Source of the DNA: Cyanodermella asteris
Taxonomy: Eukaryota > Ascomycota > Lecanoromycetes > Ostropales > Stictidaceae
Assembly (NCBI GenBank): GCA_900618795.1
Contig: UYJD01000002.1
Coordinates: forward strand, 231,586 to 295,585
DNA length: 64,000 nucleotides
Reading direction: 5' to 3'
Translations under genes and position numbers: made by a program
In this document: positions 1-34,383 of the stretch, piece after piece
Layout: every line of letters begins with the position of its first letter
Position numbering within the stretch: the first letter of the stretch is position 1
Notes under the pieces: generated by a model
Database searches by the model: none
The model's input: only the letters and a program-made list of their open reading frames with translations
What the model was told of the DNA's origin: nothing

Positions 1-1886
1 CAAGCGACCAGCCGCGCATCAAAGCACCTGTATACGACCCAGCGTCACTCCCGAAGCTACCACCTAAGCGAGAAAAGAAGGATGAGCAAGAAGCGCCAGC
101 ACCAGCTCTTCCAACAAGGGGCAAGTCGGCAACTGGGCTGAACAAGGCGATCCACAATGAACCATCTGCGCCATCGCTTCCCACAAGACCAGACAGCGCA
201 GCTCCAGCTCAGCCACCGAGACGTCTTCCGCCAACAACAGTCCCACCCGCTCGTCCGCGACCCGAAAGATCACAAGAACAGAGTAACGGCACAAACGGCG
301 CGAATGGGCATGCGTCTTCCCCCAGTGCAACTGGAGTCGTAACCTTGAATGCGCAGAATTTTGACGCGGTTGTGCTTCATTCTGGAAAGCCGGCTCTTGT
401 GGACTTTTCTGCAAACTTCTGTCACGTTTGCAAAAAGCTGGATCCCACTTATGACGAACTCGGAAACGACTTTGCACACGCGAGCGACCGTCTGGTGATT
501 GGAAGAGTTGACTGCGCTGTGGAGAAGTCTCTGGGGTCTAGGTACAATATTGAGGCCTGGCCTACAATATACTGGTTCGACGGCAAAGGCAGCCCGCCCG
601 AACAATATCCGTACAACTGGGAATACGAGTGGCTTGCGAGGTTTATCGAAGAGAAGACGGGCCTGAAACCGATAAAAGGTTCTTCAGGACAGGGCGCACC
701 ACCCCCAGTACCTCTCGGAACTAGGCCTGATCTATCAGCAATTATGCATTCTAAGCCAAATGCATCCTCAGGAAGACCAGCTGCTTCAGGCCGTTTGCCG
801 ATGATGGGTTGCCTACAGTGTCGCGACTTCTCCGCTGCCGACAACCACGCTGCAAAGTTTCCGAGGCAGAACGTGCGGTCCCTTAGCTCGCTTGCGCGGG
901 AGCTCACGGCACCTTTCGATAATGCTACCGACAAAGCGAGGGTGATATTCACCTGGATGCATCACAACGTAGCATATGACTGTGCTTCGTTCTTCGGCAA
1001 CTGTGTCCGGGGTGTAACACCTGATGAAGTCCTCAGATCTGGTCTCGCCGTTTGTTCAGGGTATGCGGGTCTCTATTCCGATCTCGCGTTGAAGGCCGGG
1101 CTTGAATGTGTCGTTATAGGCGGGCACGGCAAAGGCTACGGGCACAAAGAACTCCAACCTGGTCAAGCCTGTCCTCCTGAGTCTCAAGGCCACGCGTGGA
1201 ATGCGGTCAAGATCGATTTTGGAGGCCCGAACGGCAACGGCCAGTTTTACTGGAAGTTGATAGATCCCTGCTGGGGTGCTGGCCATCTGGCTAATGATAA
1301 ATATGAGAAATCTTTCCATCCCGGTCAATTCACCAACAGCAACATCGACTTTGGCCGCACTCACTTTCCGGAAAATCGCAAACACCAACATCGGGCGGAC
1401 GGCCGTACGATTTCCTGGCAGGAGTATTTCATTGGTGACACAGGCGGCGAGCCTGCCTTCGTGTTTGGCAACATCGCTCCCCGCGAGGGCATCGACCGGG
1501 CTCATATGCTGCCTGCGCTGAAGCGCATTCCCCTGGACCCAGGTGCGCATGCAGCCACTGGTGGGATCGTTCGTTTCCAATTTCAGCGAATATGCGATCA
1601 TTGGAATCCGGAGGTCAACGGTCCGGGCAAGGATCTACTGTACGTGCTGCCAACACAAGACAATGGTAGGAGGGTGCAAATGCCTTTCGAAACTAACGGT
1701 ACATATTGGTGGTGCGACGTGCATGTCAGCAAGCTGGGTAAAAGAGGAGACAAGATCAACATCTGGACAGTCGACTCGATGGCCGGGAAAAGCAGTCGTG
1801 GAATGTCTCGGGACGAATATCTGAGACTGCAACGACAGGGCAATGGCTCAGGAGGAAGTGGACTTGCTAGCTGGGAATTGGTCTAA
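1..1886 (+). CDS. Thioredoxin-like plus transglutaminase-like (kyphoscoliosis-peptidase type) protein, 5' truncated by window edge
   Basis: The reading frame is open from position 3 to the stop at 1886, so the start lies outside the window; the first in-frame codon often taken as a start, at 345, is TTG and not convincing. The visible protein begins with about 110 Pro/Ala/Arg-rich, probably disordered residues. A thioredoxin-like domain follows, with the redox motif CHVC (near 420-431) and a conserved Trp-Pro-Thr (AWPTIYWF). The second half is a transglutaminase-like core: nucleophile Cys in GLAVCSGYAG (near 1052), His in GHAWNAV (near 1191) and Asp in LIDPCWGAG (near 1261), the usual Cys-His-Asp order. 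The C-terminal module is like the fungal kyphoscoliosis-peptidase/Cyk3 type, which acts in cytokinesis or cytoskeletal organisation in known members. Activity here is inferred. No signal peptide can be judged because the N-terminus is missing. The thioredoxin fusion is unusual. Confidence 0.85.
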   Translation, partial: SDQPRIKAPVYDPASLPKLPPKREKKDEQEAPAPALPTRGKSATGLNKAIHNEPSAPSLPTRPDSAAPAQPPRRLPPTTVPPARPRPERSQEQSNGTNGANGHASSPSATGVVTLNAQNFDAVVLHSGKPALVDFSANFCHVCKKLDPTYDELGNDFAHASDRLVIGRVDCAVEKSLGSRYNIEAWPTIYWFDGKGSPPEQYPYNWEYEWLARFIEEKTGLKPIKGSSGQGAPPPVPLGTRPDLSAIMHSKPNASSGRPAASGRLPMMGCLQCRDFSAADNHAAKFPRQNVRSLSSLARELTAPFDNATDKARVIFTWMHHNVAYDCASFFGNCVRGVTPDEVLRSGLAVCSGYAGLYSDLALKAGLECVVIGGHGKGYGHKELQPGQACPPESQGHAWNAVKIDFGGPNGNGQFYWKLIDPCWGAGHLANDKYEKSFHPGQFTNSNIDFGRTHFPENRKHQHRADGRTISWQEYFIGDTGGEPAFVFGNIAPREGIDRAHMLPALKRIPLDPGAHAATGGIVRFQFQRICDHWNPEVNGPGKDLLYVLPTQDNGRRVQMPFETNGTYWWCDVHVSKLGKRGDKINIWTVDSMAGKSSRGMSRDEYLRLQRQGNGSGGSGLASWELV

Positions 1887-7314: not shown

Positions 7315-7361
7315 GGTCGACGTCAGGAATTGAACCTGCATGTGTGATTTTGTGTGGAATC
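7315..7361 (-). pseudogene. tRNA 3'-half remnant directly behind tRNA-Lys
   Basis: On the minus strand the sequence holds a perfect 5-bp TGATT/AATCA stem. A T-arm-like hairpin CAGG/CCTG follows, around the loop TTCAATT, and then CGTCGACC as a 3' acceptor strand. GGTTCAATTCC matches the B-box pattern of tRNA genes with one change. No D-arm or matching 5' acceptor strand precedes it, because tRNA-Lys begins immediately upstream. It therefore looks like the 3' half of a second tRNA. There is no TTTT between it and tRNA-Lys, so both could be in one Pol III transcript. Confidence 0.5.
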
Positions 7362-7362
7362 A

Positions 7363-7447
7363 GCCCAACGCGGGAGTCGAACACGCAACCTTTCGATTGT
7401 CCTCTCGTGTAAGAGTCGAATGCTCTAGCCGATTGAGCTAGCCGGGC
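7363..7447 (-). tRNA. tRNA-Lys (anticodon CTT) with 12-nt intron
   Basis: Read on the minus strand, the cloverleaf is complete: acceptor GCCCGGC/GTTGGGC (two G-U pairs), D stem GCTC/GAGC and anticodon stem TTCGA/TCGAA. The T arm is GCGTG/CCCGC around TTCGACT with one mismatch. The anticodon loop reads C-T-CTT-A, and a 12-nt intron (CACGAGAGGACA) follows the base 3' to the anticodon, the canonical position. AGAG in the intron can pair with the anticodon loop as expected for the splicing endonuclease substrate. The codon read is AAG. Confidence 0.92.
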
Positions 7448-7775
7448 CATGCGACCAATTTGCAATGAACCTTTCAGTGCTTACAAACAAATATATTCCC
7501 AACAAAATCAAGCCTACGCTTTTTCGTCTCGCTCCGGACACAGCTGATGAGATCCGGGCATAGCAGGCGATCAAGTCACATCCAGAAATTCGCGGAGTGC
7601 CTTACATTGCAAGCTTCAATTCGCAAGAATATCCTTAGCACATACGCACACAACTTGAAACGCCGACATAGATTTTCGGATCAAATTAATTTAAGATCTC
7701 GTCAGCATATCCCTCCCAATTCTAATCTAGAAGTCTACATCTATATACAAGAATGAACGAAAGGACGTCGGCCGT
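7448..7775. other. Short intergenic stretch, AT-rich
   Basis: It lies between tRNA-Lys and the 3' end of the acyl-CoA oxidase gene. It contains an AT-rich part near 7680-7760, probably the 3' untranslated region of the oxidase. No gene is seen. Confidence 0.5.
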
Positions 7776-16978: not shown

Positions 16979-17386
16979 TTAGCCGATCCTCAATGACATC
17001 GCTCCGATCACAAACCAGAAGTCCTTGCAACCAGCTAAATCAACGGCGATCAATAGCGTATCAACGTGTCCTCTTTTCTCATAGGTCCGAAGGATGTCGC
17101 GCCGGTTCCCGCCGTTAATCATCGTGTCCTCTCCCGGGCAGCCCTTCCATTGCATTCTTACCGCTACTATCGTGGGATCGAAGTTGGCTTCGAGCGCCGG
17201 ATGGACCTCGCGGAGAACCTGTATCAGATGGCGCGCCACCTGGGCTTTGATGTGGTGGGAAAAATGCATGTCCGAGCTGTGCGAGTCACAATTACTCGCA
17301 ACCATGATGCCAACCGATTGGTCGCTCCCATTGATGTAGATGCGCTTGCCGTCGGCGGCTCGGATGTGAGCAATGCAGTCGGTCAT
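16979..17386 (-). CDS. N-W family copy A, unknown function (divergent)
   Basis: A single exon from ATG 17386 gives 135 residues. I do not recognise a named family, but the second half aligns by eye with the neighbouring minus-strand genes. It has a helix HHIKAQVARHLIQVLREV, then VAVRMQWKG in the place of V-x-V-x-W, then GNRRDILRTYEKRGHVDTLL in the place of the N-W helix and R-x-x-x-D strand. The Trp of N-W is Arg here, making this one of the most divergent copies. The N-terminal FLIK-like strand is only weakly seen as GIMVAS. No signal peptide or membrane span is evident, so it is probably intracellular. It is the last copy downstream in the array. A hidden upstream exon cannot be excluded. 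Confidence 0.5.
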   Translation of the reverse strand: MTDCIAHIRAADGKRIYINGSDQSVGIMVASNCDSHSSDMHFSHHIKAQVARHLIQVLREVHPALEANFDPTIVAVRMQWKGCPGEDTMINGGNRRDILRTYEKRGHVDTLLIAVDLAGCKDFWFVIGAMSLRIG

Positions 17387-17850
17387 CGTTCTGTTGCGTC
17401 AGTTTCGACCACTTGGCGTCAGTGCTTGAGTTTTGCATTGTTGAATGATTTGTTCTTACGTGGATATTCGACAAGCGAGCTTCACAGGAGGTGTGACCAG
17501 AAACTTCTGGTGATTGGATTACTAGCAAAGAGGCTCTCAGATACAAGCGGATTTCATCAACACCAAAATGGCCAGGGAGAAGATATTTGCCGCACGGACC
17601 ATTGTCGCCATCCAGGTCCAGCAGTGGGCCTATTCACCGCTGCGATCCTCTGACAGATATTCACCTCCCTGCTATGAATGAACAGAATGCCTCTCCCGAA
17701 ACACCACCATCTTCCTTCGGCAAACCACCGATTCGGTATCACCAATCAACTGATTGCGACCTGTCTGAAACAGCTCTGTGTCAAGTATGACCTGTTTTGG
17801 ATTGGCAGAGACGCTTCAACTTTGGTGGAACGCCTTTCTTCGACTAATTA

Positions 17851-18345
17851 TCAAACAAAATCCAGCTCGAGCTCATACGTATCCCCGACTTTACGGTCAA
17901 ACACAGCGTTGTTCACAGCAGTCCAGTTTTTAGCCGTAACGGTAGTCGGATTAATGTTCTCAGCGCCTCCATGAGGCGTCCAATGCACGAGGATCCTCCT
18001 AGTCCTAGGCCTTGCGACCCAGCTTTGCTTGAAATCGGGCGCGCTGGCAACTCGCGCTTGGCAGTAGGCCGGGAGCTCTCTATGCAGTGCGTCCAAGGCG
18101 GCTTTATGGGCTTCTGCGTCGAGCATGATCGGGAAACCGCCGCCGTCAAGACAGATATAGTCTACCCAGCCACGCTGGAGCTGTGACCATGCCCTTCCGT
18201 TGCTGAGCGCCGGTGTCAATTTAAACACAAACCCCCGCTCCTTGGCCATGACGGCAGATGATGGATCGAAGCTCGCAGATCGGGCCGATCGGGTAGTTTC
18301 GGTCAATGTGGAGTAGGAGTTGACAGCTGTTGTGTCGGAATCCAT
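17851..18345 (-). CDS. N-W family copy B, unknown function
   Basis: Starting at ATG 18345, the intronless frame gives 164 residues. Family marks are in order: RGFVFKL strand, a cysteine (YICLDGG), IMLDAEAHKAALDALHREL as the LDM helix, ILVHWTPHGG as V-x-V-x-W, and TVTAKNWTAVNNAVFDRKVG as the N-W helix. The frame ends in a short acidic strand, LELDFV. The first 45 residues are Ser/Thr-rich and not conserved. There is no leader peptide. All family marks are intact, so this copy may be functional. Role unknown. Confidence 0.68.
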   Translation of the reverse strand: MDSDTTAVNSYSTLTETTRSARSASFDPSSAVMAKERGFVFKLTPALSNGRAWSQLQRGWVDYICLDGGGFPIMLDAEAHKAALDALHRELPAYCQARVASAPDFKQSWVARPRTRRILVHWTPHGGAENINPTTVTAKNWTAVNNAVFDRKVGDTYELELDFV

Positions 18346-18858
18346 GTATGTGGCGTACTTGGTGCTAGCACTATTTCCTGTGTGCAAAGGAACATGAAGA
18401 GGGAATTCATGGCTTTCTTATCTTCATAAATGGGGTCGGATAAGGTGGACGCAGCAACGTGTTGGCACTACGTCCTCATGTCTACTTTCACTGAACAGTG
18501 CAGGCTCAAACAGTACACGCGGCGGAGCGCTGTTGGAGCACGAAAGCACTGGCAATCTTCTTGGCGGAATTTGGAAGCTGGCAAGAACTCCTTCGCTGCG
18601 CGGGCCGATGATTCTGACGGGAGTTTGTCATCTGATTCCACTGAGGGCTGTACCTGCAAACCCTGCTATCCGCAACCGCTAAGATATGTTGGGCCCAAAA
18701 TCAAACCGCAACAAACTCTGCCCCAGACGCGCGTGGCGATGATCCTCGCATCACTGACGTAGTCTGATCAAACGAGCAAGAGCGGCCTCTCAGTCTGACC
18801 ACCAGTCAAGTCCGCTCTGGCGAGGCAGGGCAGACGTTCCAGGCTTCTCACGTGGCTA

Positions 18859-19254
18859 CTACTTCTGCGTCGGTCCGACAAAGTCGAGTTCAGCATGATC
18901 AATCTGCACCCCGCGATTGGAGACACCACCAGCAATATCCGGTCAGTTCTACGCAATGGCGATTGATCTGGGATTCTTCTCCCTTGTGGTTTCCGCATCC
19001 ACTACACTACAAAGCTCACAATTCCTTAGTTTCGAAGTGAGCGCACTTGCAAAATGCGGAGTGTCGGAGAAATGCCTCTGAAAGAGATCCTTGACGAGCT
19101 CAAGCAACGCGCCACATGCCCCGTCAAAGTCACCCATATCGAGAGTTGCAGGTAGAGCTTCGGTGGAGCAGAGTCTGTCCATCTCCGCCTTCTCGGTCCT
19201 CGATTACTCGTTCTCATTGCTCAACTTTCGTCTCAACAAAGATACGAATGGTCT
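18859..19254 (-). pseudogene. N-W family copy C, broken by nonsense codons
   Basis: From 19182 downward the frame reads ATLDMGDFDGACGALLEL, a good match to the LDM helix of the other copies. At the N-W site it runs into TAG (18949-18951), Asn, then TGA (18943-18945), and then continues PDIAGGVSNRGVQIDHAEL to a normal-looking end at 18859. The TGA sits exactly where the other copies have Trp, and the TAG one codon before the Asn. Both are one C-to-T or G-to-A change from a sense codon. A further in-frame TAA (19204-19206) lies upstream, where the FLIK-like strand (IFVETKV) is in another frame, so at least one frameshift is also likely. Confidence 0.65.
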
Positions 19255-19701
19255 ACTGTTGGTCAGGAAAGGGTCTCTACCCGGGTGACTGAGTGCGAAG
19301 CAAAGCGGAAGCGAGTCACAGAACTTTTCATGAATCCTTCCATCAACAGTCAGGGGCCAAATATCGATCTGTTGGAAGACTTGAGCTGTCAGTTTGCTGT
19401 TGAAACAAGCACAAACGGCAGACGAGGTGGAACTTTCTCAGAATATGGATGCAATTGACAAGCCAAATTACAACAGTGACAACAGCGCATCTGCAATTGT
19501 TTCGACTGCACATTTTGGCCCGCCCTGGTTATTCGCCTGACAACCCCGACTATCAAATCCGTTCGCATCTTTGGAAGATTGTGTCGCAGCCACGATGTAT
19601 CTCTGACGACTTGAAAAACCTATCCTTGGCCCTCTTACCCATTCGCTAGTGCCACAGTCTCAATCCCGACACAACTCTCATCCTTCCTGGCCTTGTCTGA
19701 C

Positions 19702-20244
19702 CTAATCAAAGTGCCAGTCATCGTCGTCCCCGATAGCCTCATCTTCGCCGCTTCTGTCAATCTCATGTGTCAACTCGGCGATAAACAGATCAACACCATT
19801 CCGGTCGGCGATGGTTCGGCTAATGGCCCTCCAGTTACATGGCGTAATTACAGTGCAGTCAAGCTGAGCCCTCCCGCCCTGATGGACCCATTCGACAGTC
19901 ACAGACCTGATAAGAGGCTGACGCACATGCTGGTGCTCACGTTGGTGGTCATAGTCACGGGAGAGCTGAAATCCGATCTCATTCGTCGCCTCCTCCATCA
20001 CCTGGTCATAATCCTCCATATCGAGGACGGCGCAAAAGGCAGCTGGCTGACGCAATCGGACACCGTTGGGCCAGGTCTTGTCGTGGCACTCGAAGCAGAT
20101 GACCTTGATCAAGAATCCTCTGGTCTCGTTCTCGGGCTCCGGCTCTGACGAGGCTCGAGACATAAAGGCGCAACTGTTTGACTTTTGGCGCAGGCTCAAG
20201 TTCGGCTCTGCTAGAGGTGAGCATTCAGTAGCTACGATGACCAT
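19702..20244 (-). CDS. N-W family copy D, unknown function
   Basis: This intronless 180-residue protein starts at ATG 20244 (an internal ATG at 20163 would also keep the whole domain). It is one of the clearest copies. The marks are RGFLIKVICFECHD, FCAVLDMEDYDQVMEEA, SVTVEWVHQGG, VITPCNWRAISRTIADRNG and VDLFIAEL. An acidic tail (GEDEAIGDDDDW) ends the protein. It is closest in sequence to copy F, with the shared stretch R-T-I-A-D-R, which suggests a recent duplication compared with the other copies. It lacks a signal peptide. Function is unknown. I infer an alpha/beta fold with about three strands and two helices. Confidence 0.72.
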   Translation of the reverse strand: MVIVATECSPLAEPNLSLRQKSNSCAFMSRASSEPEPENETRGFLIKVICFECHDKTWPNGVRLRQPAAFCAVLDMEDYDQVMEEATNEIGFQLSRDYDHQREHQHVRQPLIRSVTVEWVHQGGRAQLDCTVITPCNWRAISRTIADRNGVDLFIAELTHEIDRSGEDEAIGDDDDWHFD

Positions 20245-20617
20245 GGTTTCTTACAAGCAAAATGTATTTCCGGGTCCGACGAATTGCTCGACAGCGTTGC
20301 GTGTCAGGGCCGGCTGTGACACTGAAGTGGAAGAGATCAAGGTCCAGCTGTTGCGAAAACAGTTTTCTGAAGCTTGAGGGAGGGCCACGTGATGCGCTTG
20401 ACCATTACATTTGCAAGATTGCTATTGACACGGGCAGTCCGAGCCTGACGGCTGTTTCGGGGTTGAGTGCGACAAATTCAGGAGCACAGCATCAGTTTCT
20501 ACTTGGGCAGGTAGCTTCAGACATACTTCGCACCAAGCCAAACAGACGGCGACCATGAATGCACAACGAAGTTTGACGATACTACACCATATCAATACCC
20601 AAGCTTTCTCCACTATG

Positions 20618-21364
20618 TCAATCGACAAATACGAGAGCCATTGTATGCATATCCGGCTTTGCCCTCGTCTCGGCATCCCGTGCCAACGCCACCACAATCA
20701 CGGTCGGTCCGTGAAAGTCGCACATCGTGCGGGCCACAAACGGCCAATTCCACCTATTGACTCTTGTAGGCGGAGCCGCAAACCCCGGTCCTCCAGAATG
20801 ACCCCATTCGACCCAAGTTCGCGCAACGTCCACAATCGCCAACTCGTGGTGCATATTTTGAGCATAAATATGGTCCCTTACACCTTGCAATAGCTGTCTG
20901 AACATTGTTGGTCCGTCATCCATGTCCAGAATGATGCAGGCTCCGTCGCAGTAACGTCTTAAATCGCCCCAATCCAGTCTCACGAGGAAGCCTCTATTAC
21001 TGACCGGGGGCTGATGGGGGTCTTCCTCGGGGTCTTCCTCATTAGGAGATTCGTCTTCGTCTTCGAAACGCGGCGAGGTAGGGATTTCCGAGCTTGGAGA
21101 TGTTTTATATGCAGGGGGGCTGGAAAGTCCGCGAAGCTTGGAACTGGATGGCTCCGGATTTCCAATCTCATAGCTCTGAGCTGCAGGGTCTTGATTGGCA
21201 GGACCTGGGTCGATGGACTCTGTCGAGGTGGGTTGCAAGGTGGTAGGTCTGGGAAGAGCGGGCCACGAATTGGTAGGCGACGGAGTCTCGGTTTGTGCAT
21301 TTGAAGATTCCGCTACATCCGACCCTGAAGCGGCAAGCTCTGTACTGGCAGACCCTGCGGTCAT
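20618..21364 (-). CDS. N-W family copy E with long disordered N-terminus
   Basis: ATG 21364 opens an intronless frame of 248 residues. The first 125 residues are Ser/Pro/Thr/Glu-rich and low in hydrophobics, ending in an acidic patch (EDEDESPNEEDPEEDP). The family domain follows with RGFLVRLDWG, CIILDMDDGPTMFRQLLQGV, ARTWVEWGHSGG and NRWNWPFVARTMCDFHG. The N-W pair is present. The domain is shorter between the first strand and the LDM helix than in the other copies. The long variable leader followed by a constant domain also occurs, in shorter form, in copies B and G. No signal peptide is present. Function unknown. Confidence 0.7.
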   Translation of the reverse strand: MTAGSASTELAASGSDVAESSNAQTETPSPTNSWPALPRPTTLQPTSTESIDPGPANQDPAAQSYEIGNPEPSSSKLRGLSSPPAYKTSPSSEIPTSPRFEDEDESPNEEDPEEDPHQPPVSNRGFLVRLDWGDLRRYCDGACIILDMDDGPTMFRQLLQGVRDHIYAQNMHHELAIVDVARTWVEWGHSGGPGFAAPPTRVNRWNWPFVARTMCDFHGPTVIVVALARDAETRAKPDMHTMALVFVD

Positions 21365-21981
21365 GCCATTCCTCGACTTCCGAGGCGGCCGGCTAAGAAT
21401 TTTCTATCAGGCTGTCAGCGTTGAAGCTCCTCAGGGAGCATTAAACTGACCGGAGGCATTTGTGCAATGTATTGACGACTCTCTTCTATATCTTCAGCAG
21501 GCGGAGAACCATCTAATGTCGCCTCAGAACAAGGGCGCGAAGACGTGAATTTATGGGCCGTGAGCAATACTTGCTAGCTGTGTGTCTTTTGTTTGCTGTG
21601 CTTGGAAACTACGCCAGTCCACGCATTTGCAAAAGCTGCAAGCTTTACATCTGATGGTTTTGTCGCCTGCCTGCTGCGGCAGAAGTGAGTCCTTATTTGG
21701 ATATCGCTTAAGGTGTTTACTACTATGTCCGTGACAATATGTTAAGCGGCACGGTACGGACTTTAATTTTCCTGACCTACACGATGACGGAATTGGAAGT
21801 CTGCTTGAAGGGCTGATTATCTGATCTCAATGCCTGATGGTTTTCGCTCCGTCTGACAGATACAGACCACGTGCAGTATTCTCTCACAAACGACTGAGCA
21901 GGCGGGCTATCCCTGGAGCTTTCTATCTTCCTGGACCGACTGAACAGCTCCCACAGCTCGATTGGTTCTCACATGCTGTGG

Positions 21982-22365
21982 TCACGGTGGTGGCGACAGC
22001 CGTGCCACAATCAAGTCGATGCCGCCTCTGTCCGCGATGGTACGAGCAACGCTCAGCCAATTACTGGGGGCGATTATCGTCCCCGAGGGAGGCCCTGCGT
22101 TCTGTTCGTCGCCAGTGTGCATCCAGGCCACCCGCAGAGTTCTAAATTCGCCTGGGAGCTTATGTTGATGATGGTCTCGCCAGTGTTGGTCAAGAGACAG
22201 ATGGTCTTCCAGCTGATTCATCAGTTGGGTTTGCATCATGAAATAGTCATGCATATTGAGCATGGCGCAGAGTCCTGCTGGCTGTTTTTCGCGTTCGTAT
22301 TCGATACAGTCGCACGCAATCTTGATCAGGAATCCCCTCTCCGGTGAGGCGACACTGGCTGTCAT
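21982..22365 (-). CDS. N-W family copy F, unknown function
   Basis: ATG 22365 gives 127 residues without intron. The open frame extends upstream to a TTG, but the ATG sits just before the conserved domain and an upstream exon is possible. The marks are RGFLIKIACDCIEYEREK, LCAMLNMHDYFMMQTQL, LRVAWMHTGDEQ, IIAPSNWLSVARTIADRGG and IDLIVARL. This is the shortest complete version, so it defines the minimal domain of about 120 residues. It is very like copy D in the last 40 residues. Function unknown. Confidence 0.7.
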   Translation of the reverse strand: MTASVASPERGFLIKIACDCIEYEREKQPAGLCAMLNMHDYFMMQTQLMNQLEDHLSLDQHWRDHHQHKLPGEFRTLRVAWMHTGDEQNAGPPSGTIIAPSNWLSVARTIADRGGIDLIVARLSPPP

Positions 22366-23347
22366 GATGGAAGGGGCCGAAGCGATGCTTTGAAAAGAGC
22401 AGAGAAATCTGAACCAAGTCAATAAGTCAGCCGTTAGTAGCTGAAATGTCGTATTTACCTAAGTAAAACGCAACAGCTTTAGTTCCTCACCTCTGGGAAT
22501 CTTGTTCGGACCTTTCTTTTTTCCCGGGCACAACTAGGGCTGCGATCTAAGCCCCCTCTTATCAATGGCTTGTCGGTTCTACAATATCAGGCATTACCTG
22601 TTTGGTAAACCGCATCGGCACTCTGGGCCATGTTTGCGAACACGTCGATGCGGAAAACGACCAGTGACGATTGCTACAGCGAGAGAATGCGTTACACATA
22701 TGAGTAAGCCGGACACGAAGGAGCAACAAATGCTGTTATCCAAAATGAAATTGTGTCAAGGCAGCCATGGCAGATCTAAGCTGGCAATTCAAGCAGACTT
22801 GTCTCGAGCCCTTGTCAAAACGCAGCATATTTCCCAGCTCCGAGAACCTTTGTTTGTGCATGTTCTGTCAGGGACTGTGCCCAAAAGCTCTATCGTCATC
22901 TTGTACAATCATTGTTGGATGCTGATCCCTATATAATGCTCACTACCATGCGACTTGGTATCCAATATTCGATGCTTCCCTTCCTCAAACAGCAAGAGAG
23001 CGAGGTTACAAGCTGCCTTCAATCCGAGACACTGATGCGCACCCATTTCGTTCAGCAGTCCATGAAAGCTGAGGTCACAACCAGGATCGCGTTGCCCTAG
23101 CTATCGGTCATGGTCTTGCAGATGAGCCCTCAATCGTCCTGATCAGCAGATGTGTCAGGTGTTTCGATTCCCGATCGGAGCCACTTGACTTAGTCGGCTC
23201 ACCAATTCGATTCTCCACTTGAAACCCGGTAGCCCCAAGTTGACTTGCTTGCAACTACATCTGAAGCGACAGCTCACCTTAAAATTAGGTTGTGTGGGTT
23301 CGAGGCATATCAGGATGCCAGATTTCCCTCGTGCCACCAACCCCATA
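22366..23347. other. Longest plain gap inside the paralog array
   Basis: About 1 kb without a family copy on the minus strand. A 123-codon plus-strand frame at 22565-22936 shows no motif. I see no repeat or transposon ends. Confidence 0.45.
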
Positions 23348-23872
23348 TCAATCCCTATCCACTGCCGCCAAGTTGACATTCACTGCTAGAACATCGATAC
23401 TGCTGCGAGCAGCAATCATGTTGGACACGGTTGACCAGTTCGAGGCAGTAACCGGCGTTGGCGCAAACCCACACTTCGATTCCCACCAGATGTTCACGGC
23501 AACAACCTCTGCACGACGGAGGTAAGGAAGGCTGTCCTGAAAGCTTTGGTTGGTCTTGATCAACTCGTGAGCGCGGTCGTGCAACGCGGCCAGGACGAGC
23601 CCACGAAGCTGCTCCATCATCGTCGGAAAGTCCTTCGTGTTCAAATCGGCACACATGCCTCGGCCTTCGCAAAGCGTGTTGAAGTTATCTTTGAGCCTGA
23701 AAGCTGGCCCCCGTGCAAGCCAAGTTGGAGTATCCACGAGACAGGAAACCATTCGGATCAAGAAGACTCTTTGCTGGGGAGTTGTTGGACGCGAGCTCTC
23801 GGGTGTGGATGGGCTTTCGACTTCAGCCTGGCGAGGACTCGAGGAAGCGGGCTCGGTCGATGGCGAGACCAT
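23348..23872 (-). CDS. N-W family copy G, unknown function
   Basis: An intronless frame of 174 residues starts at ATG 23872. The leader of 33 residues is Ser/Pro/Thr-rich. Then come QRVFLIRMVSCLVDTP, GMCADLNTKDFPTMMEQL, VVAVNIWWESKCG and VTASNWSTVSNMIAARSSID, the complete set of family marks. The loop between the first strand and the LDN helix is longer than in copies D and F, by about 15 residues. No signal peptide. Probably intact. Function unknown. Confidence 0.7.
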   Translation of the reverse strand: MVSPSTEPASSSPRQAEVESPSTPESSRPTTPQQRVFLIRMVSCLVDTPTWLARGPAFRLKDNFNTLCEGRGMCADLNTKDFPTMMEQLRGLVLAALHDRAHELIKTNQSFQDSLPYLRRAEVVAVNIWWESKCGFAPTPVTASNWSTVSNMIAARSSIDVLAVNVNLAAVDRD

Positions 23873-24613
23873 GTTGAAAAGTCGCTAGGATTTTGCTTGA
23901 ATGGATGCCTAGTCCGAGCGAGTATTGTTGTCGCGACGAAGTCGAAGGGTTTTACTCGCTGACAGATTGCAGCTGCACAGAAGTGATCGGAGCGGGAAAA
24001 GGTTGTTGGGTACATTACGAAAGCGAGACCAAATGACAAAGATCTAAGTGCCTGAGAATCATTGTCGCGTGTTGACTCAAGTGAATGTTGGTAGTTGATT
24101 GTTCCAGCATCTTTCACGCATCAGAGTCAGGCATCTGACTGATGGTACAGGCTGCCGCGCCACAGATGGCGGAGCCTGATACCTACGGAAGGATACAGGG
24201 GAGGACTTGATGGCATGTTCGCGGATACTTTTCTGCGCATTCAATCTGGGGCTGGCTTCACGTCTGGCGAGTCTGTTGTCTAGATCGGCAACTGCCTGTC
24301 TCAATCGCACACCGCAGCAACCTATTGGTACACAATTATCGAGGGTGATCTATACGCCTGCTGTCAACACGTACTACAGAGAAGCCGATCCGGACTCATG
24401 TGGATGTTCAATTGAGGTACTTGGATCTGACTGTCATCTCGAAATAGGGACAATCATCGGAACGCTCAGACGCCGCGGTCATCAACGACTCGGTGACAAT
24501 GCGTCCATCTTCGTAGTCGCTGTCTCAAGAAAGCGTGCTGTTTGACCCTAGGCACTCCAACTGCTCAAACCACATGTATCATGCCGCTGGGCGGTCAAAT
24601 TCGCGATAAGTCA

Positions 24614-25218
24614 TCACAGTTCGACGTAAACCTCCAGCGTGTCTCTCAAATTGCGGGTCTGAATGGCTTGCGCCACAGCACCCCAGTTCTCTGCGTCGAA
24701 AGGAGTGCTCGCCAAGGTGTCCATTCCATCCCAGTGGACATGTATGCCCATGACCCCAACATTGTGGAGGACAGCCCGGTGGGAGGTCAGCGTCGAAACC
24801 ATCACCCCTCTCCGCGTTACAATCGGCAAACGCGCGCGCTCCTGACACAACGCAACAGATCGTTCTGCATATTTGAGTCGGCATACATGTCGAACGGAGC
24901 GCAAATGGTCGTCTGGCGACACACATATTCAAAGTCGGTCTTCTGGTCGTTGGTCAGTCTGCCGGGCTGGTTCCTGGCAGGAATGAGCTTGATGAGGAAT
25001 GCTTTCTTGTTTACATCACAGTGGCTGGGTCTCATGGGGTTGGGAACGTAATGGACTTCCTCTGTCTCCAGGCTGCCTGTGCGAGTGCCCTTGGACTGTG
25101 GGAGGCGTGGGGTGAGTCCTCTGTCGAGCAAAGCGCGCTTCTTCTCGCGAACAGTCGATGCGGGGACGCCGTACTGGTTTAGCAATAACATAGCGTCTAA
25201 TTTTCGCCTGCTATTCAT
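24614..25218 (-). pseudogene. N-W family copy H, split by a one-base frameshift
   Basis: ATG 25218 opens a frame with a basic leader, then KKAFLIKLIPARNQPG and ICAPFDMYADSNMQNDLL. It stops at 24817. The rest of the domain is in the next frame: VMGIHVHWDG, then STPFDAENWGAVAQAIQTRN, ending at the stop at 24614. The two parts together have the normal spacing, so a lost base is more likely than an intron, and no good donor and acceptor fit. The shift falls near a GC-dinucleotide run (about 24830-24840), a place prone to indels or to assembly error. If the base is an error, this is an intact copy of about 200 residues. Confidence 0.6.
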
Positions 25219-25610
25219 TCAACCAGCGCTCAAAAGAAAATGGTTTGCGTCACCCAGTTGTGGTGAAGACTACCTCTCACCTGCGATTCCTAACTCGCAT
25301 CTCGAACTCAGCGTGCTGACTGGTCTTGCAGCATGCTCGATCGCCTTCACATGAGCGTTCCTCATACATAAAAACAGAACCGAACAACAGAGTAACAGAG
25401 TGAATTGATTGAAGACTGTGATACGCGCTCGGCCTTTGTGGCAGTCAATGCTCATGTTGTGCCCCTCGCTTGCCCGCAGGGCCCTCGACACCCATGACTC
25501 CCTTTGGAACCTGTGTAAGCACAAAACAAACAAACCCACGACGCGAGCTTCCCGGTATCGACAAGTTCGAGATATGTGTACGATAGGAAGAGGGAAAGGA
25601 ATGTCGACAG

Positions 25611-26462
25611 TCACTTCTTCGTCCTCGTCCACTTGGGTGTCTTCGGTACCACCACCGTAATCTCCTTCTCTTTACCCTTGCCCTTTGGCTCCACAGTCAC
25701 GACGCCCGCACTTGTCTTTGGCCTTTCGTCGACCGCCTTGCGCTTTCTGCTCGAACTTCTGCTTGGCCCACTGCTCGAACTGCTCGGCTCGCCGGACTCC
25801 ACCGGATCGGATGTGGGGATTTCGTGACATCGTAGAAAGTCCTCTCTCGTGACCTCTTCCAAGTCCGGCTCTCCTGCCGAAGTGATGGCGGGCTGATCCG
25901 GTTTGTCATTGACAAACTTGGACGGCATAAAGAATCTGAGTATGATCCAATCTGAAGTAGCGGTGGTTTTGCTCTTCTTCGAGTATCTCGAGGCCAAGAG
26001 GGGCCAGTTTCCGATGCCGACTATCGTATGTTTACTGCCCGGAAAGCCGATTGGGTAATCCGAGTGATAATAAGCCATTCTCTCAAACTTACACCGTACC
26101 ACCTGCGCAATGTCGAGCTCTGTGCCTGATTTTGAATTGGTCCGGGAAATCAACTGCGCCATGCCGAATCGACAAAGCTCCTCGACCGCGGTGTCGTAGT
26201 CGGTGGTATGGAGAGACGCCACGAATGGACTCCAGTCGGACCAGTAATGCCCCGCTGGTGTATTTTCGACTTGTAAGATGCAGTTAAAAAGGACGTGATC
26301 CGTCACTGACCAAGGGTATGGTACATTGACGTATGGAACTGCGTATATGGCCTTGCGTGTCTCTTTCGTTGCCATTCGATTGCTCTCGTCGTATCTGAAG
26401 CCCTCGGGAAGGTAAATTCCTTGCATATACTGTCGGTGGCCCGTTGTAATTCTGCGGACCAT
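25611..26462 (-). CDS. N-W family copy I with basic C-terminal tail
   Basis: ATG 26462 gives 283 residues; the open frame continues upstream to a TTG, so an unseen first exon is possible. The family domain is diverged but in order. It has VLFNCILQVENTP, then FVASLHTTDYDTAVEELCRF, a CKFERMAYYH strand where others have V-x-V-x-W, and TIVGIGNWPLLASRY with the N-W pair kept. Unlike all other copies it continues for about 110 residues that are Ser/Pro-rich and basic, including SSRKRKAVDERPK and KGKGKEKE. The first of these resembles a nuclear localisation signal. A nuclear role is only an inference. Confidence 0.62.
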   Translation of the reverse strand: MVRRITTGHRQYMQGIYLPEGFRYDESNRMATKETRKAIYAVPYVNVPYPWSVTDHVLFNCILQVENTPAGHYWSDWSPFVASLHTTDYDTAVEELCRFGMAQLISRTNSKSGTELDIAQVVRCKFERMAYYHSDYPIGFPGSKHTIVGIGNWPLLASRYSKKSKTTATSDWIILRFFMPSKFVNDKPDQPAITSAGEPDLEEVTREDFLRCHEIPTSDPVESGEPSSSSSGPSRSSSRKRKAVDERPKTSAGVVTVEPKGKGKEKEITVVVPKTPKWTRTKK

Positions 26463-27252
26463 TATGGAAGACTGCTGGATGAGTTTTGTGATGCGGCTTT
26501 GTTCTGCGGCTGTGAGTTGAAACGGCTTCCGGGAATATCTGCAGGGAAGGAGGTCTGTCGCCCAAAAAAAGGAGAGTGAATGTCTAAATGAGCATGTGAT
26601 TGTTGGAGACAACAAAATGAAAGCTGCTGTATTTCTGTAGAGTCAACGTAGGAGGCTGGGGAGAATGGCAGTCACCGAATACTCAGAACCCATGCCAGGT
26701 GCTATCTCTATCCCACTTGGCTGACGCTTGCTCCCATGGCACGAGAGAGTGCTCGTCTCCGTGTCAACCATTACCGCAATAACCAGCAAAAGACCTCAAT
26801 GGCCAGTCCGTTGACCAGAATCGTCAATCATGTGGTCCGTCAGAAGGTCGGACATCCAGTCACAGCAAGTTTGCTGAAATGTCAATAAGTTCGCCGGTGG
26901 CTGGACTTGAGCCACACACTACATTATGCATTCGGTCTTTCAACATCACATTCGAGATTCAGGGTCAAACAAAGCTCAGACCAGCTGGAAGGTCCGCCGT
27001 CGTCCCGACTGGCCGGAACTCCCGGCTCCAAGCTTCGGAACCGGCGCTAGCCTGCGGTATGTAACGTGGAAGCAAACTCAATTCTGGCCTTCGAAAGGGG
27101 GCAGTTAGGGATTGCTATCGTCCTTCAGTCAGGTTGAAGCTGTGCGCAATACAGAAGTAATCTTTGCCGAAAACTTCGGTTGCCCGGTGGCAGGCCAGAG
27201 ATGCACAGATTGTCACGGACATAGGAAGGGGCCGTCAGTCGGGGACTCACGG
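26463..27252. other. Intergenic with no clear gene, ends at assembly gap
   Basis: No family marks are visible on the minus strand here. Short plus-strand frames near 26879-27108 have no motif. Confidence 0.45.
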
Positions 27253-27324
27253 NNNNNNNNNNNNNNNNNNNNNNNNNNNNNNNNNNNNNNNNNNNNNNNN
27301 NNNNNNNNNNNNNNNNNNNNNNNN
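27253..27324. other. Assembly gap (72 N)
   Basis: A run of 72 unknown bases lies inside the paralog array. The gap size may be an estimate. The sequence on each side shows no confident family copy, so a missing copy or a collapsed repeat is possible. Confidence 0.95.
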
Positions 27325-27737
27325 GTCAACCAACCCGTGCCCGCGTTACACAGATGTTCTCCATCAAGTGCGGTTACACAAATAGTGAAATTCCACGAAG
27401 AGGTAACATCCATTTCAATCGTGGTGATTGCAATTATACGTACCAAGCCCAGTCGCATCGGCAATTGGAAACGCTGTGCAAGAGGCTGGAGCATGTTGCT
27501 ACTCGTATTGGTTCCTGCGTCACTGCCGCGGCCGTCTCTGCGCTGATCATCGTGTGAATCCAGTGGATCTGCCGGGTGCCGACAGATAAGTGCAAGTTCG
27601 AGGATTTGTCGTTGCCGTTGCCGTCGAAATTGGCTCAACCTTTTTCTGACGGTCGAGTTCAACCACAGCAGTCAAGCAGTCCTCGCCGTGTACGTAATAT
27701 TGGTACTCTCGCTGTACAGTCTACTCCTTTAAATTCG

Positions 27738-28290
27738 CTACCATTGGCGGGCTTTCGGCGGGTACCCTTCCCGTGGATATCGCCGGATTCCGACTGAAAG
27801 CACATCCCGGGTGCCGCGCTGGATCATGCAGGCAGCAATAAATCCCCAATTCCTCTCATTGATTTCCGTAGCCGGCATTGATTGAAGATTCCGATAACCG
27901 GCCCATTTGACTCTTCCTACCAATTCGAAAATGAACGCGGTCTGGATTGAGCAAGCTAGCCTCGGCCATGTGCAGTGCGACTTGCACAGCCAACTGCTGT
28001 CGTGCGAGGGTTAGGTCGTAGATGTCGAAGAAAGACAGGAGGCCACCGAGTCGCCTACAGTAGCCCGAATCATCCTGGTCTTGGACCCGGACAAGGAACA
28101 TTCCGAAACTGCGCGGTAGCATAAAGTTAGGTGCCTGTCCTAGTGGAGTTGCCGGTGGCGTCGCTGGCCGTTCCACTGTAGTCTGTAGCTGATGTCGGTA
28201 GCTGCAAATTCTTCCGGCCTCATCCGGGCTCTCTGTAGTGCAATAGATGAAGGCGTGAGTCTCAGTAATCTGGACTGCTCGCAACATCAT
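27738..28290 (-). pseudogene. N-W family copy K, split by a one-base frameshift
   Basis: Starting near ATG 28290, the first frame carries a leader, then RSFGMFLVRVQDQDDSG (first strand) and LLSFFDIYDLTLARQQLAV (LDM helix). It stops at 27856. The remainder is one frame over: VGRVKWAGYRN for V-x-V-x-W and TEINERNWGFIAACMIQRGT for the N-W helix, ending at 27738. Spacing is normal, so a one-base insertion somewhere near 27923-27990 is the simplest reading. The second frame stays open upstream, so the exact place cannot be fixed. It may be a pseudogene or a sequencing error; no intron fits. Confidence 0.55.
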
Positions 28291-28385
28291 TCTCCTAATG
28301 CGTTGAACATCAGAGCAAACATTGCGCAAACGAAAAAGTGCGTGGCAGCTATGTTTATAGCACGTTCAAGCTGCCAGAAAGCGTG

Positions 28386-28697
28386 TTAACAAATACAATA
28401 TGAAGCTATCAGGTCGTGAGCAGGCCTTCTGACATTACCCTCCGTGCTAGCATGTCGCAGATAGAACAGCTCAACATCGTCAAAGCGCATTTCTTGACCG
28501 CTGTGGTAGAGCTGACTTGCTAGCTGCCAAACAAGAGGCGCGGGCCTGTGAACTCCTCGGACTGCAACAGTTCTATTGAACGCATAGGCAATTGAAAAGC
28601 AGCTAATCTTGAACAAGTTTCCAAAGTTAGAAGTGGGCTGCCACTTCAAGAGTTTGTCTAATACTGCATCTTCGTATCCGCCGCATGCGATGTCCAA
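28386..28697 (-). other. Possible heavily diverged or partial array member
   Basis: A 103-codon frame on the same strand as the array contains NLFKISCFSIAYAF, a helix-like LVWQLASQLYHSGQE and a strand VELFYLRHA. These could correspond to the first strand, LDM helix and V-x-V-x-W strand, but no N-W pair follows. The likeness is weak and could be chance. Confidence 0.25.
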
Positions 28698-28906: not shown

Positions 28907-31123
28907 TCAGGCCATTCTCTGTGATCTGGATCTTCTTGTCTTGCCGTTCCATGGGCCTGAGATCTTGTCATCCACAGCCATCGTACTAGGCCCAGCTGAG
29001 TCAGCCATGATCTCATCATCGTCCGAATTGATTCTAGCACGCTCAACCTCGGACTTTGGGGTATCATGTTCATCCTCCTCTTCACCGTCTTCATATTCAC
29101 TGCCACTCTGTCCGTCATCAGAAACGAGGCTCGGAGCCTGATTTGTATCTATCGCGTGGTGTGTCCCGGGCGACAATTCCGCCGGTGACACGCTCATGCC
29201 AGAGCTTCGGCGTGCAAAAGGGTTGCCGCTGCTGAGCTTTGGCGTGGTTGGATCGTCGATCATCACGTCAGCCGAGTCATTGTCTTGGAAGCTAGGGTGG
29301 TGGGATTTTGAGTCTGCCCTGGTCAAAATGCGGGTTGGTGGACTTGTCCGGGCCGCATCCGCCCCGGGTCTTCTTTTGTTCCGTCTATTCCCCGGGTCGC
29401 ATAAAAAAGCCGCCTCATCGCGCTCGGCACTACTCCCCCGACTTCGACTGTCATCCCTAGTTGATTGCAGTCCCTTCTTGCTTCCCGGGCGACGTTCCAT
29501 CAATGGCGCACCAAGTCCACCCACCGTTTCGTGTTGTTTAGGTACCCGGGACCGTGAAGGAGCAGCAACCGCCGTTGTTGTTTCCACGTCGGCTTCCGTC
29601 GCATCTTCAGGTACAAAAACATTATCCAAGTCGAATCTATCCTGAGCTTCCTCTACCATGGCTTTGAGATTGCCAGCTTTGCCGGCTTTGCCGGCATGGC
29701 CAAACCGCTCGCTGAGGAAGGGGAGCTGATCACTTGCCACGAAAGCAGGTGAAATGGGAGGTCCCATGTTCGATTGACGCCGTTGCCTTTCGTTGTGAGG
29801 TACATTGGAGCTCGCCGATGGTGGTAGCTTCTCACGTTTCTCTGGCCAATCCCGCGCAGAGGTCAATCCCGGACGATTGTACGGATGTGTCAATACTGGG
29901 GCGGTCCGTAACTTTTGCTCAAATTGGCCCGCAGGCGCTGTCAGGTTGGCTGCACGCATCGTCGTAGGGCTAGGAAGATTCAGCGCATCTATAGAGTTCC
30001 GATGGGTAGAAGAAGCCAACACTAGAGATAAAGCTTGTTGTTCCACATTAGGTGGGCGTTCCGCGGCAGGACCAGAAGGTCGCTCCACAACTGAAGGGAG
30101 CCTTTCTCGTATTGAAGCTTGAACGGCGCCAGCACTCGATGCCGTCCCAATAACCTGGTCCACTCCGTCCGTAGTACCAGCCCGCTGAGCGGCGTCTTCG
30201 TGAGTGGCGAAGTGGATCTGATGCTTTATGCGACAGTGGTTGATGAAGCCTTGAACGCTGTTGAAACGTTCCTCGCCACAGCCAGGGCCAGGACATACGA
30301 GCTTGACGAACATGCCGTCCGACTGTCTCTTTATGACTTGAGCCGAGCGCTCTGGCTTCGGTTGTGCGTACCCAGAAGGTAGTGATTGTAGAACTGTGCC
30401 AGTAGATCCACGTGAGCCACGGGACCGACTAGATGTAAGGACATTGTCAAGGGACCCTTGTGAGCCTCGAGATCGTGCACTCTCTGCATTGGTTTGCATA
30501 GATGTCGCGTTAGGCGCAGTGGAGCCACCCTCAAAGAGAGGGTCGTGCAAAAGCCATTGCGAGTAATGGCGAGTATATGGTCCATCAGCAACGCCCCAAG
30601 GTGCAGGCGACAAGGGCGGGTGTGCTTGGCGGGGATGGACAAGAGCAGGACCGGAGCCGGTGGCCACCTTCACCGCGTCGCTGGAGATGCCAGTCATACT
30701 GGGGTAAGGGATCTCGCTGCAACGTCTTAGCTGTTCCAAAGCCACCTGACATTTAGCGATTTCCTGGTCAATGAGACGTAGCTCATTGTGCTTGTAAAGT
30801 ATCCTTGTCCCAAAGTTCGCGGTGATAGTCTCCCTAAAGCGGTCCAGTGCCTCGGCATCCATCTCACGCCTCCCCGTTACTTGGTCTCGTGAACTGGCAG
30901 TGCCTGGGGCCTGGATCGGAACGCTTGCAGCATCGAATACATCGTGTACGCGTGAGCTTTGAGCTTGAGGTGCAACGCGGCTTTGGCCGGGATCTGTAAT
31001 GTTATATGCTTTGTCGCCGCTGTTCCTTTTCTTGTTCATTGTAGCTATTGACCCCGCTGGAAAATCAGAGTCAGGAGATTTGCGCTTCAAACTCGACCGA
31101 GCAGAATTCGACTGCTCCATCAT
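28907..31123 (-). CDS. AHC1: Ahc1-like C2H2 zinc-finger protein (ADA histone acetyltransferase complex type)
   Basis: One exon from ATG 31123 gives 738 residues. Residues about 90-135 form a helical, probably coiled-coil segment (FRETITANFGTRILYKHNEL). Near residue 270 a single zinc finger appears, CPGPGCGEERFNSVQGFINH followed by CRIKHQIHFATHEDAA, which fits the AHC1-type C2H2 finger (Cys-Cys-His-His, then IH-FA-HEDAA). In yeast Ahc1 is a structural subunit specific to the ADA complex that acetylates histones. The rest is disordered, with Ser/Arg-rich repeats (SRSRGSRGS) and a strongly acidic stretch (EYEDGEEEDEHD) near the C-terminus. Basic runs suggest nuclear location. The finger is the only firm evidence; the symbol is a family-level assignment. 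Confidence 0.7.
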   Translation of the reverse strand: MMEQSNSARSSLKRKSPDSDFPAGSIATMNKKRNSGDKAYNITDPGQSRVAPQAQSSRVHDVFDAASVPIQAPGTASSRDQVTGRREMDAEALDRFRETITANFGTRILYKHNELRLIDQEIAKCQVALEQLRRCSEIPYPSMTGISSDAVKVATGSGPALVHPRQAHPPLSPAPWGVADGPYTRHYSQWLLHDPLFEGGSTAPNATSMQTNAESARSRGSQGSLDNVLTSSRSRGSRGSTGTVLQSLPSGYAQPKPERSAQVIKRQSDGMFVKLVCPGPGCGEERFNSVQGFINHCRIKHQIHFATHEDAAQRAGTTDGVDQVIGTASSAGAVQASIRERLPSVVERPSGPAAERPPNVEQQALSLVLASSTHRNSIDALNLPSPTTMRAANLTAPAGQFEQKLRTAPVLTHPYNRPGLTSARDWPEKREKLPPSASSNVPHNERQRRQSNMGPPISPAFVASDQLPFLSERFGHAGKAGKAGNLKAMVEEAQDRFDLDNVFVPEDATEADVETTTAVAAPSRSRVPKQHETVGGLGAPLMERRPGSKKGLQSTRDDSRSRGSSAERDEAAFLCDPGNRRNKRRPGADAARTSPPTRILTRADSKSHHPSFQDNDSADVMIDDPTTPKLSSGNPFARRSSGMSVSPAELSPGTHHAIDTNQAPSLVSDDGQSGSEYEDGEEEDEHDTPKSEVERARINSDDDEIMADSAGPSTMAVDDKISGPWNGKTRRSRSQRMA

Positions 31124-33495: not shown

Positions 33496-33732
33496 AGCGC
33501 CGATGGACGAAGTACAGTCTTGGTGTAGGTGGTGATGGACGCAGGAGCTCGAGTGCGAGGCACATGGGCAAAATCGCGGGCCTGAGGTTGGAGTTGTGAT
33601 TGGCGGAGCTTCATTCCGCGGGCAAGGTGAGCATCATTTTGTGTGAAGTCATCCTCGAAGCTCACCCTCATCCATCCAAACCTTTACGCAAACCAGGGTC
33701 CCTGTCTCCCACTAAAGTCGCTCTCTACGCAG
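33496..33732. promoter_or_regulatory. Shared divergent promoter region of SMD3 and GEP4
   Basis: Only 237 bp separate the two start codons, so both promoters and 5' leaders must be here. No clear TATA box or operator can be named. Confidence 0.6.
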
Positions 33733-34383
33733 ATGAATGTCTCCGGAACTCTGAACGCATTTCGCGTGCTGTACAATCCAGCTCTCATTCTCCCTCACTG
33801 TACCATTCGCACCTTTGACCAGCTTCCTATTCCGCTGTCCAATGCTTTCGTCCATTCATTACGTCCAGAGAAACGTCCAGACATCCGGGCAGTCGTCTTA
33901 GACAAGGACAACTGCTTCGCGGTCCCCCATACGAATGTCGTCCACCCCCCATACTCTGCTACCTTTTCGCGTCTCAAGTCCACGTACCCTAAAACGCTCT
34001 TGATCGTGTCCAATTCCTCTGGCACAAGTACACAGGATCCGCAAGGAACAGCAGCGAAGAGACTGGAACAAGAGACGGGCGTGCCGGTGCTCAGACACTC
34101 TACAAAAAAACCTGGCTGTGGTGAGGAGATTCTCCAATACTTTCGCAATATCGAGGGTTCAGGTGTGGAGCGACCCGATCAGATCGCCGTCGTAGGAGAT
34201 CGTATATTCACAGATGTCATGCTGGCAAACATGATGGGGGCCTGGGCTGTCTGGGTTCGGGATGGTGTAGAAGCACCCAAAGGTTGGACAGGCTTGTGGA
34301 CAAGGACCGAGGGCAGGTTGGCACATTTCCTCTTACAAAGAGGCTGGCAACCTCCAGAGCCGAGAAGTCCATTCGAAACCTGA
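33733..34383 (+). CDS. GEP4: Mitochondrial phosphatidylglycerophosphatase Gep4
   Basis: ATG 33733 opens a single exon of 216 residues. The frame is open further upstream but only from a GTG, and the chosen Met matches the usual N-terminus of the family. The HAD-type active site is VVLDKDNCF (D-x-D with Asn-Cys), the Gep4 hallmark. Motif II is LLIVSNSSGTSTQD, a conserved Lys lies in STKKPGCGEEI, and the final Asp motif is VVGDRIFTDVMLAN. The enzyme dephosphorylates phosphatidylglycerophosphate to phosphatidylglycerol on the cardiolipin route at the inner mitochondrial membrane. Length is normal for fungi. Confidence 0.95.
   Translation: MNVSGTLNAFRVLYNPALILPHCTIRTFDQLPIPLSNAFVHSLRPEKRPDIRAVVLDKDNCFAVPHTNVVHPPYSATFSRLKSTYPKTLLIVSNSSGTSTQDPQGTAAKRLEQETGVPVLRHSTKKPGCGEEILQYFRNIEGSGVERPDQIAVVGDRIFTDVMLANMMGAWAVWVRDGVEAPKGWTGLWTRTEGRLAHFLLQRGWQPPEPRSPFET

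Follow-up and report, generated by a model that had tools for sequence, protein, structure and literature searches.

A local tandem family of small proteins with a predicted PB1-like beta-grasp domain in Cyanodermella asteris

The window analysed here is a stretch of 64,000 nucleotides (positions 231586-295585) on contig 6 of the Cyanodermella asteris genome (28.54 Mb, 25 contigs). From about 17.0 to 28.3 kb of the window, the minus strand carries a head-to-tail array of one protein family. The flanking genes had been described as ordinary in the first-pass annotation. This holds for six flanking proteins named by Pfam (a Kre9/KNH protein, a PQ-loop protein, an FAD-binding protein, a PGP phosphatase, a short-chain dehydrogenase and an Arm-repeat protein); the two ORFs next upstream of copy K (28386-28697 and 28907-31123) are without a Pfam match up to E 0.01. 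Judged by sequence, the neighbouring genes are of filamentous-ascomycete type. Among the 120 matches listed for the PGP phosphatase (33643-34383), the named ones have about 51-66% identity, most of them over 87% of its length, and come from lichen fungi, Leotiomycetes, Dothideomycetes and further groups; one metagenome match reaches 84%. Thus, the matches listed include no named protein from a close relative. The array members are the following.

Copy A, 16979..17386, minus strand: C-terminal half of the domain, with the N-terminal half unrecognisable (profile E 0.033, genome consensus search E 2.1e-4).
Copy B, 17851..18387, minus strand: intact gene (leave-one-out profile E 2.6e-13).
Copy C, 18901..19191, minus strand: pseudogene with one TGA and one TAG within the matched stretch (genome search E 0.018; N-terminal half, profile E 0.026).
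Copy D, 19702..20244, minus strand: intact gene (leave-one-out E 9.8e-25); the modelled domain, 19750-20145, is a predicted beta-grasp.
Copy E, 20618..21364, minus strand: intact gene (leave-one-out E 1.4e-8), extended at the N-terminus by about 120 aa of low complexity.
Copy F, 21982..22422, minus strand: intact gene, nearest to D (39% identity over 115 aligned codons; leave-one-out E 1.2e-19).
Copy G, 23348..23872, minus strand: intact gene (leave-one-out E 3.3e-15).
Copy H, 24614..25218, minus strand: split between the frames 24820-25218 and 24617-24928 (E 8.9e-6 for the C-terminal half and 0.063 for the N-terminal half).
ORF I, 25611..26615, minus strand: possible very diverged member with a basic RKRK stretch in its tail, placed by a shuffle-tested profile score and otherwise by eye.
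Copy K, 27741..28329, minus strand: two frames (C-terminal half, profile E 7.9e-5, genome search 0.67).

The C-terminal half of K lies in the frame 27741-28010 and extends beyond ORF 27856-28329, in which the N-terminal half was placed by eye, with no profile match there. In both H and K the frame changes mid-domain, with too little room, by eye, for a usual intron. The split in H is a frameshift or a sequencing error, and the breaks in H and K may likewise be real or due to sequencing. A copy J was sought at 27.2-27.7 kb and rejected, with no profile match; a gap of 72 Ns (27253-27324) is present where it would sit. The ten copies first counted are thereby reduced to five intact genes (B, D, E, F and G), as H and K each run over two frames, C contains stops, A amounts to half a domain and I is unproven. 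About half of the array is thus intact, which fits birth and death. RIP was also considered and rejected (TA/AT index of 0.46-0.61 over the array in 2-kb bins, against 0.41-0.78 over the window), as were DNA-level repeats between the array units (a single inverted 20-base match, E 0.038).

To resolve membership, a profile of B, D, E, F and G was run against the 1600 window frames of at least 25 aa. Ten array frames, all on the minus strand, rank first (E 2e-53 to 0.063); the frame ranked after them scores E 1.7, reversed frames reach 0.15 at best, and the best E in each of 20 dinucleotide shuffles of the window was 0.06 to 4.8. Because those five copies built the profile, each was left out in turn, with the underlying alignment still made from all copies, and all five were recovered, from E 1e-24 to 1e-8. 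Over these five runs the C-terminal halves of H (9e-7 to 3e-3) and K (1e-4 to 8e-3) were also found, and marginal scores were obtained for A (0.017 to 0.44), the N-terminal half of H (0.05 to 0.43) and C (0.012 to 0.56, missing from one run); one non-array frame scored 0.52 in one run. Thus, A, C and the N-terminal half of H were accepted on position, strand and register jointly, not on score alone. A and C are strengthened by the genome-wide consensus search, to which both contributed. Pairwise BLAST within the small set compared links D-F (34% identity over 146 aa, E 4e-26), E-F (2e-10), B-D (2e-7), D-G (4e-7), F-G (3e-6) and D-E (3e-6), and connects K, B and G with the C-terminal part of H (3e-5 to 8e-5). 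These profile and pairwise searches show B, D, E, F and G to be homologous, along with parts of four broken or weak copies. The one-family, head-to-tail, minus-strand array of the first-pass annotation is thereby borne out, and the significant profile similarity between copies on which it had staked that claim is found for the five intact genes. For ORF I the score was matched by 1 of 1000 shuffles when a widened, ten-row profile was used, and by 15 of 1000 when the profile had five rows; its best pairwise BLAST E is 0.21, its alignment with the family is poor, it finds only itself as a genome query, and it is absent from the genome consensus search. Its membership is suggested but unproven by sequence, and it is retained as a possible member.

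The consensus of the ten-row profile has nine matches in the 28.5-Mb genome (D, G, F, B, E, A, C, H and K), all inside the array. When copies F, D, G, B and H were each used as a genome query, the matches lay in the array apart from three weak ones (E 0.3 to 1.1); these three loci, C12, C3 and C24, were rejected, with no profile match at the matched place and a best E of 0.57 elsewhere in them. The array is thus a local expansion, as had been proposed, at the sensitivity of a search that a member as diverged as I would escape. No significant Pfam family was found for ten ORFs or eleven domain pieces (best DUF4469 and RasGEF_N, E 0.14-0.22). A family profile searched against 5.8 billion proteins gave 5892 candidates, none at E <= 1, and the copy D domain alone gave one candidate, with none at E <= 10; this search starts from words, and diverged relatives can escape it. 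As a control, 803 proteins at E <= 1e-20 were recovered with the neighbouring PGP phosphatase; the 120 listed include many fungi, so fungi are represented in the database. Among viral contigs 63 stretches fit a search pattern, and among prokaryote contigs 17, none of which was confirmed. In a PDB sequence search, PER2 fragments matched a 5-row profile (E 0.0034) and were gone with an 11-row profile (best E 1.9), so they were rejected as chance. The family thus remains as unrecognised by Pfam, PDB-sequence and protein-database searches as it was at first reading, and the literature searches turned up no report of small PB1-like proteins forming a tandem family in a fungus.

Ten pairs of intact copies share 22-39% amino-acid identity. 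The second codon position is the most identical in 10/10 of these pairs and the first exceeds the third in 9/10; the codon alignment followed the protein, a procedure that favours positions one and two. Among the five pairs that include I, outside that count, the second position is highest in four. At fourfold sites, in codons with the same first two bases, 36/115 match (31%), near a roughly estimated chance level, and synonymous sites look saturated. Saturated-looking synonymous sites together with a kept protein core point to old duplicates under constraint, and the copies are most simply read from their sequences as old duplicates constrained by their fold. Three trees have long branches with weak support of 44-82%, and D and F are neighbours in all three. 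Codon bias is 0.02-0.11 bits per codon in A-G and I and below zero in the C-terminal half of K, against 0.05-0.27 in training genes; this scoring discriminates poorly, and a plus-strand frame opposite D reaches 0.12 against 0.11 for D itself. Taken together, the array is a real, old and local family of small proteins.

The domain of copy D was modelled with AlphaFold2 (pLDDT 80.6, pTM 0.74) from 11 sequences of one locus, so that an apparent orphan array received a fold from nothing but the diversity among its own members. The confident model predicts strands at 8-18, 37-42, 78-86, 98-99 (two residues only) and 119-126, and helices at 46-63 (with 65-70) and 105-115, which is the strand-strand-helix-strand-strand-helix-strand order of the ubiquitin-like beta-grasp; a Chou-Fasman average agrees roughly. 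The best 14 rows of its structural matches are all PB1, in a re-ranking of Foldseek's own matches in which the absence of other folds is no evidence. The array differs from PB1 (PF00564) in a long insert between strands 1 and 2, which brings the copy D domain to about 120 residues, above the usual PB1 range, and its proteins are small and without any other Pfam domain. No PB1 Pfam match was found for ten ORFs up to E 1 or for eleven pieces up to E 10, where HMMER filters drop most matches above 0.1. A six-row PB1 profile, which finds NBR1, TFG, p62 and p40phox in PDB beyond the PKC and Cdc24 related to its rows, was compared with the family by hhalign, with a probability of 0.15-0.16%; 21/200 shuffles (local) and 57/200 (global) equalled the real family. 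With a differently aligned set 2/150 shuffles were as good, and the less favourable figure was adopted, as the six-row profile is the better one. From the model we infer a PB1 relationship: the predicted domain most resembles the PB1 family, with no sequence-profile support.

PB1 domains have a strand-1 lysine, an acidic OPCA core or both, type 2 having the lysine only (PMC7051960). In the array, 7/7 readable copies have K or R (four K, three R; copy K by eye) at what is taken to be position 4 of strand 1. This basic residue matches the genome's own PB1 domains. The OPCA core D-x-D/E-x-D/E is found in 0/8 copies, and in 2/4 of the genome's own PB1 domains as a strict pattern; the hand-picked OPCA segment has 0-4 acidic residues in the copies against 5-8 in the four own domains. 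The aligned copies thus show the basic residue conserved and the OPCA core lost. Without that core the domain is not type 1 or type 1/2, whereas type 2 needs none, and the array domain most resembles a type-II-like PB1.

Four classical PB1 loci are found elsewhere in the genome, with the architectures CBS-PB1, PH-PB1, PB1 only (in the examined stretch) and SH3-SH3-PX-PB1. A survey of 12 fungal proteomes distinguishes Bem1, Cdc24, Mug70 and NoxR as PB1 families, and sets aside two more single-species cases as of low confidence (PMC7051960). The four loci fit the Mug70, Cdc24, NoxR and Bem1 architectures given there, the third being the NoxR candidate by elimination. Candidate partners with acidic faces occur in the same genome.

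The best explanation as a whole, held tentatively at somewhat under an even chance, is that the array encodes tandem PB1-like docking modules that have only the basic face and cap acidic PB1 faces. The family would be an old tandem set evolving by birth and death, each protein consisting of a disordered-looking N-terminal tail and one beta-grasp domain. Predicted starts, read by eye for the signal peptide of a secreted effector, run into serine/proline-rich or charged tails, which makes an intracellular location plausible. With a basic residue and no OPCA, such a module would offer a basic face only and could occupy an acidic PB1 face without extending the chain, as a cap. Stand-alone modules may cap or compete for the acidic faces of the Cdc24-like, NoxR-candidate and CBS-PB1 proteins, and so might tune polarity or oxidase complexes (Cdc24 or oxidase assembly), with separate copies perhaps serving separate partners. 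A shared fold proves no function, and docking, partners and biological role are inferred.

Beta-grasp (ubiquitin-like) adaptors other than PB1, of other origin or convergent, with another ligand such as a small GTPase, are a somewhat unlikely alternative, against which stand the PB1 matches in the best 14 structural rows, the strand-1 basic residue shared with the genome's own PB1 domains, and the DW pair in helix 2 of yeast Cdc24, which by eye resembles the family NW. Neutral or weakly selected birth and death of a minor lineage-specific gene, with most copies lacking a distinct role, would account for the broken C, H and K, the half domain of A, the protein database without a relative and the weak coding bias. 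However, five frames are intact, with fold-defining residues kept in spite of apparent saturation at fourfold sites, and all pairs of intact copies agree most at the second codon position, so that this reading is quite improbable. The local expansion and strong divergence of neighbours had led to speculation about roles in recognition, conflict or self/non-self; a family of this kind would be under diversifying selection between its copies. This suggestion found no support and is very unlikely, as the divergence looks old and fold-constrained, with saturated fourfold sites and the best-kept second position, and Pfam shows no known recognition domain. Chance open frames in fungal intergenic DNA, to which the weak codon bias and the level score opposite D might point, can practically be dismissed given the single strand, the confident fold and leave-one-out E values down to 1e-24 against a shuffle best of 0.06, which refute chance for B, D, E, F and G; ORF I might still be such a frame.

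If the capping interpretation is true, a one-faced PB1-like tandem family would represent a conserved docking system expanded and rewired within one lineage, with testable partners named. Its furthest extension, a fifth, lineage-restricted class of fungal PB1-like proteins acting as a diversified set of one-faced plug-in regulators of polarity and oxidase signalling by capping Cdc24, NoxR or the CBS-PB1 protein, is unlikely. Aux/IAA proteins of plants carry degron and repression motifs, and no sequence link is seen between the array and the PB1 domains of Aux/IAA and ARF. Plexin Rho-GTPase-binding and other ubiquitin-like domains have a lower best structural score, again with no sequence link seen. 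With Bem1, Cdc24, NoxR and Mug70 the array has the predicted fold in common. However, Bem1, Cdc24 and Mug70 carry further domains according to PMC7051960, whereas the array consists of tandem small proteins outside all four families.

ORF I (window 25611-26615, minus strand), a possible very diverged member of the array, closes with a Ser-rich tail, in which the basic stretch RKRKAVDERPK is seen by eye; on the same reading of the sequence, this stretch could be a nuclear localisation signal. Between ORF I and copy K, which is split over two frames, the array contains a run of 72 Ns (window 27253-27324), where a further array copy might be hidden. The following features were also found in the window:

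345-1886, plus strand: single-frame ORF that combines PF00085 (thioredoxin domain) with PF01841 (transglutaminase core)
7361-7448, minus strand: tRNA-Lys (CTT) of 88 bases, possibly including an intron
28386-28697, minus strand: 103-aa ORF lying upstream of K

The 103-aa ORF has no Pfam match up to E 0.01, and is not matched by the sequence profile built from array copies.

Four PB1 loci (L029-L032) were identified in the genome with PF00564. Their architectures (CBS-PB1, PH-PB1, PB1 only in the stretch seen, and SH3-SH3-PX-PB1) fit the four known fungal PB1 families, Mug70, Cdc24, NoxR and Bem1, respectively, with NoxR assigned by elimination.
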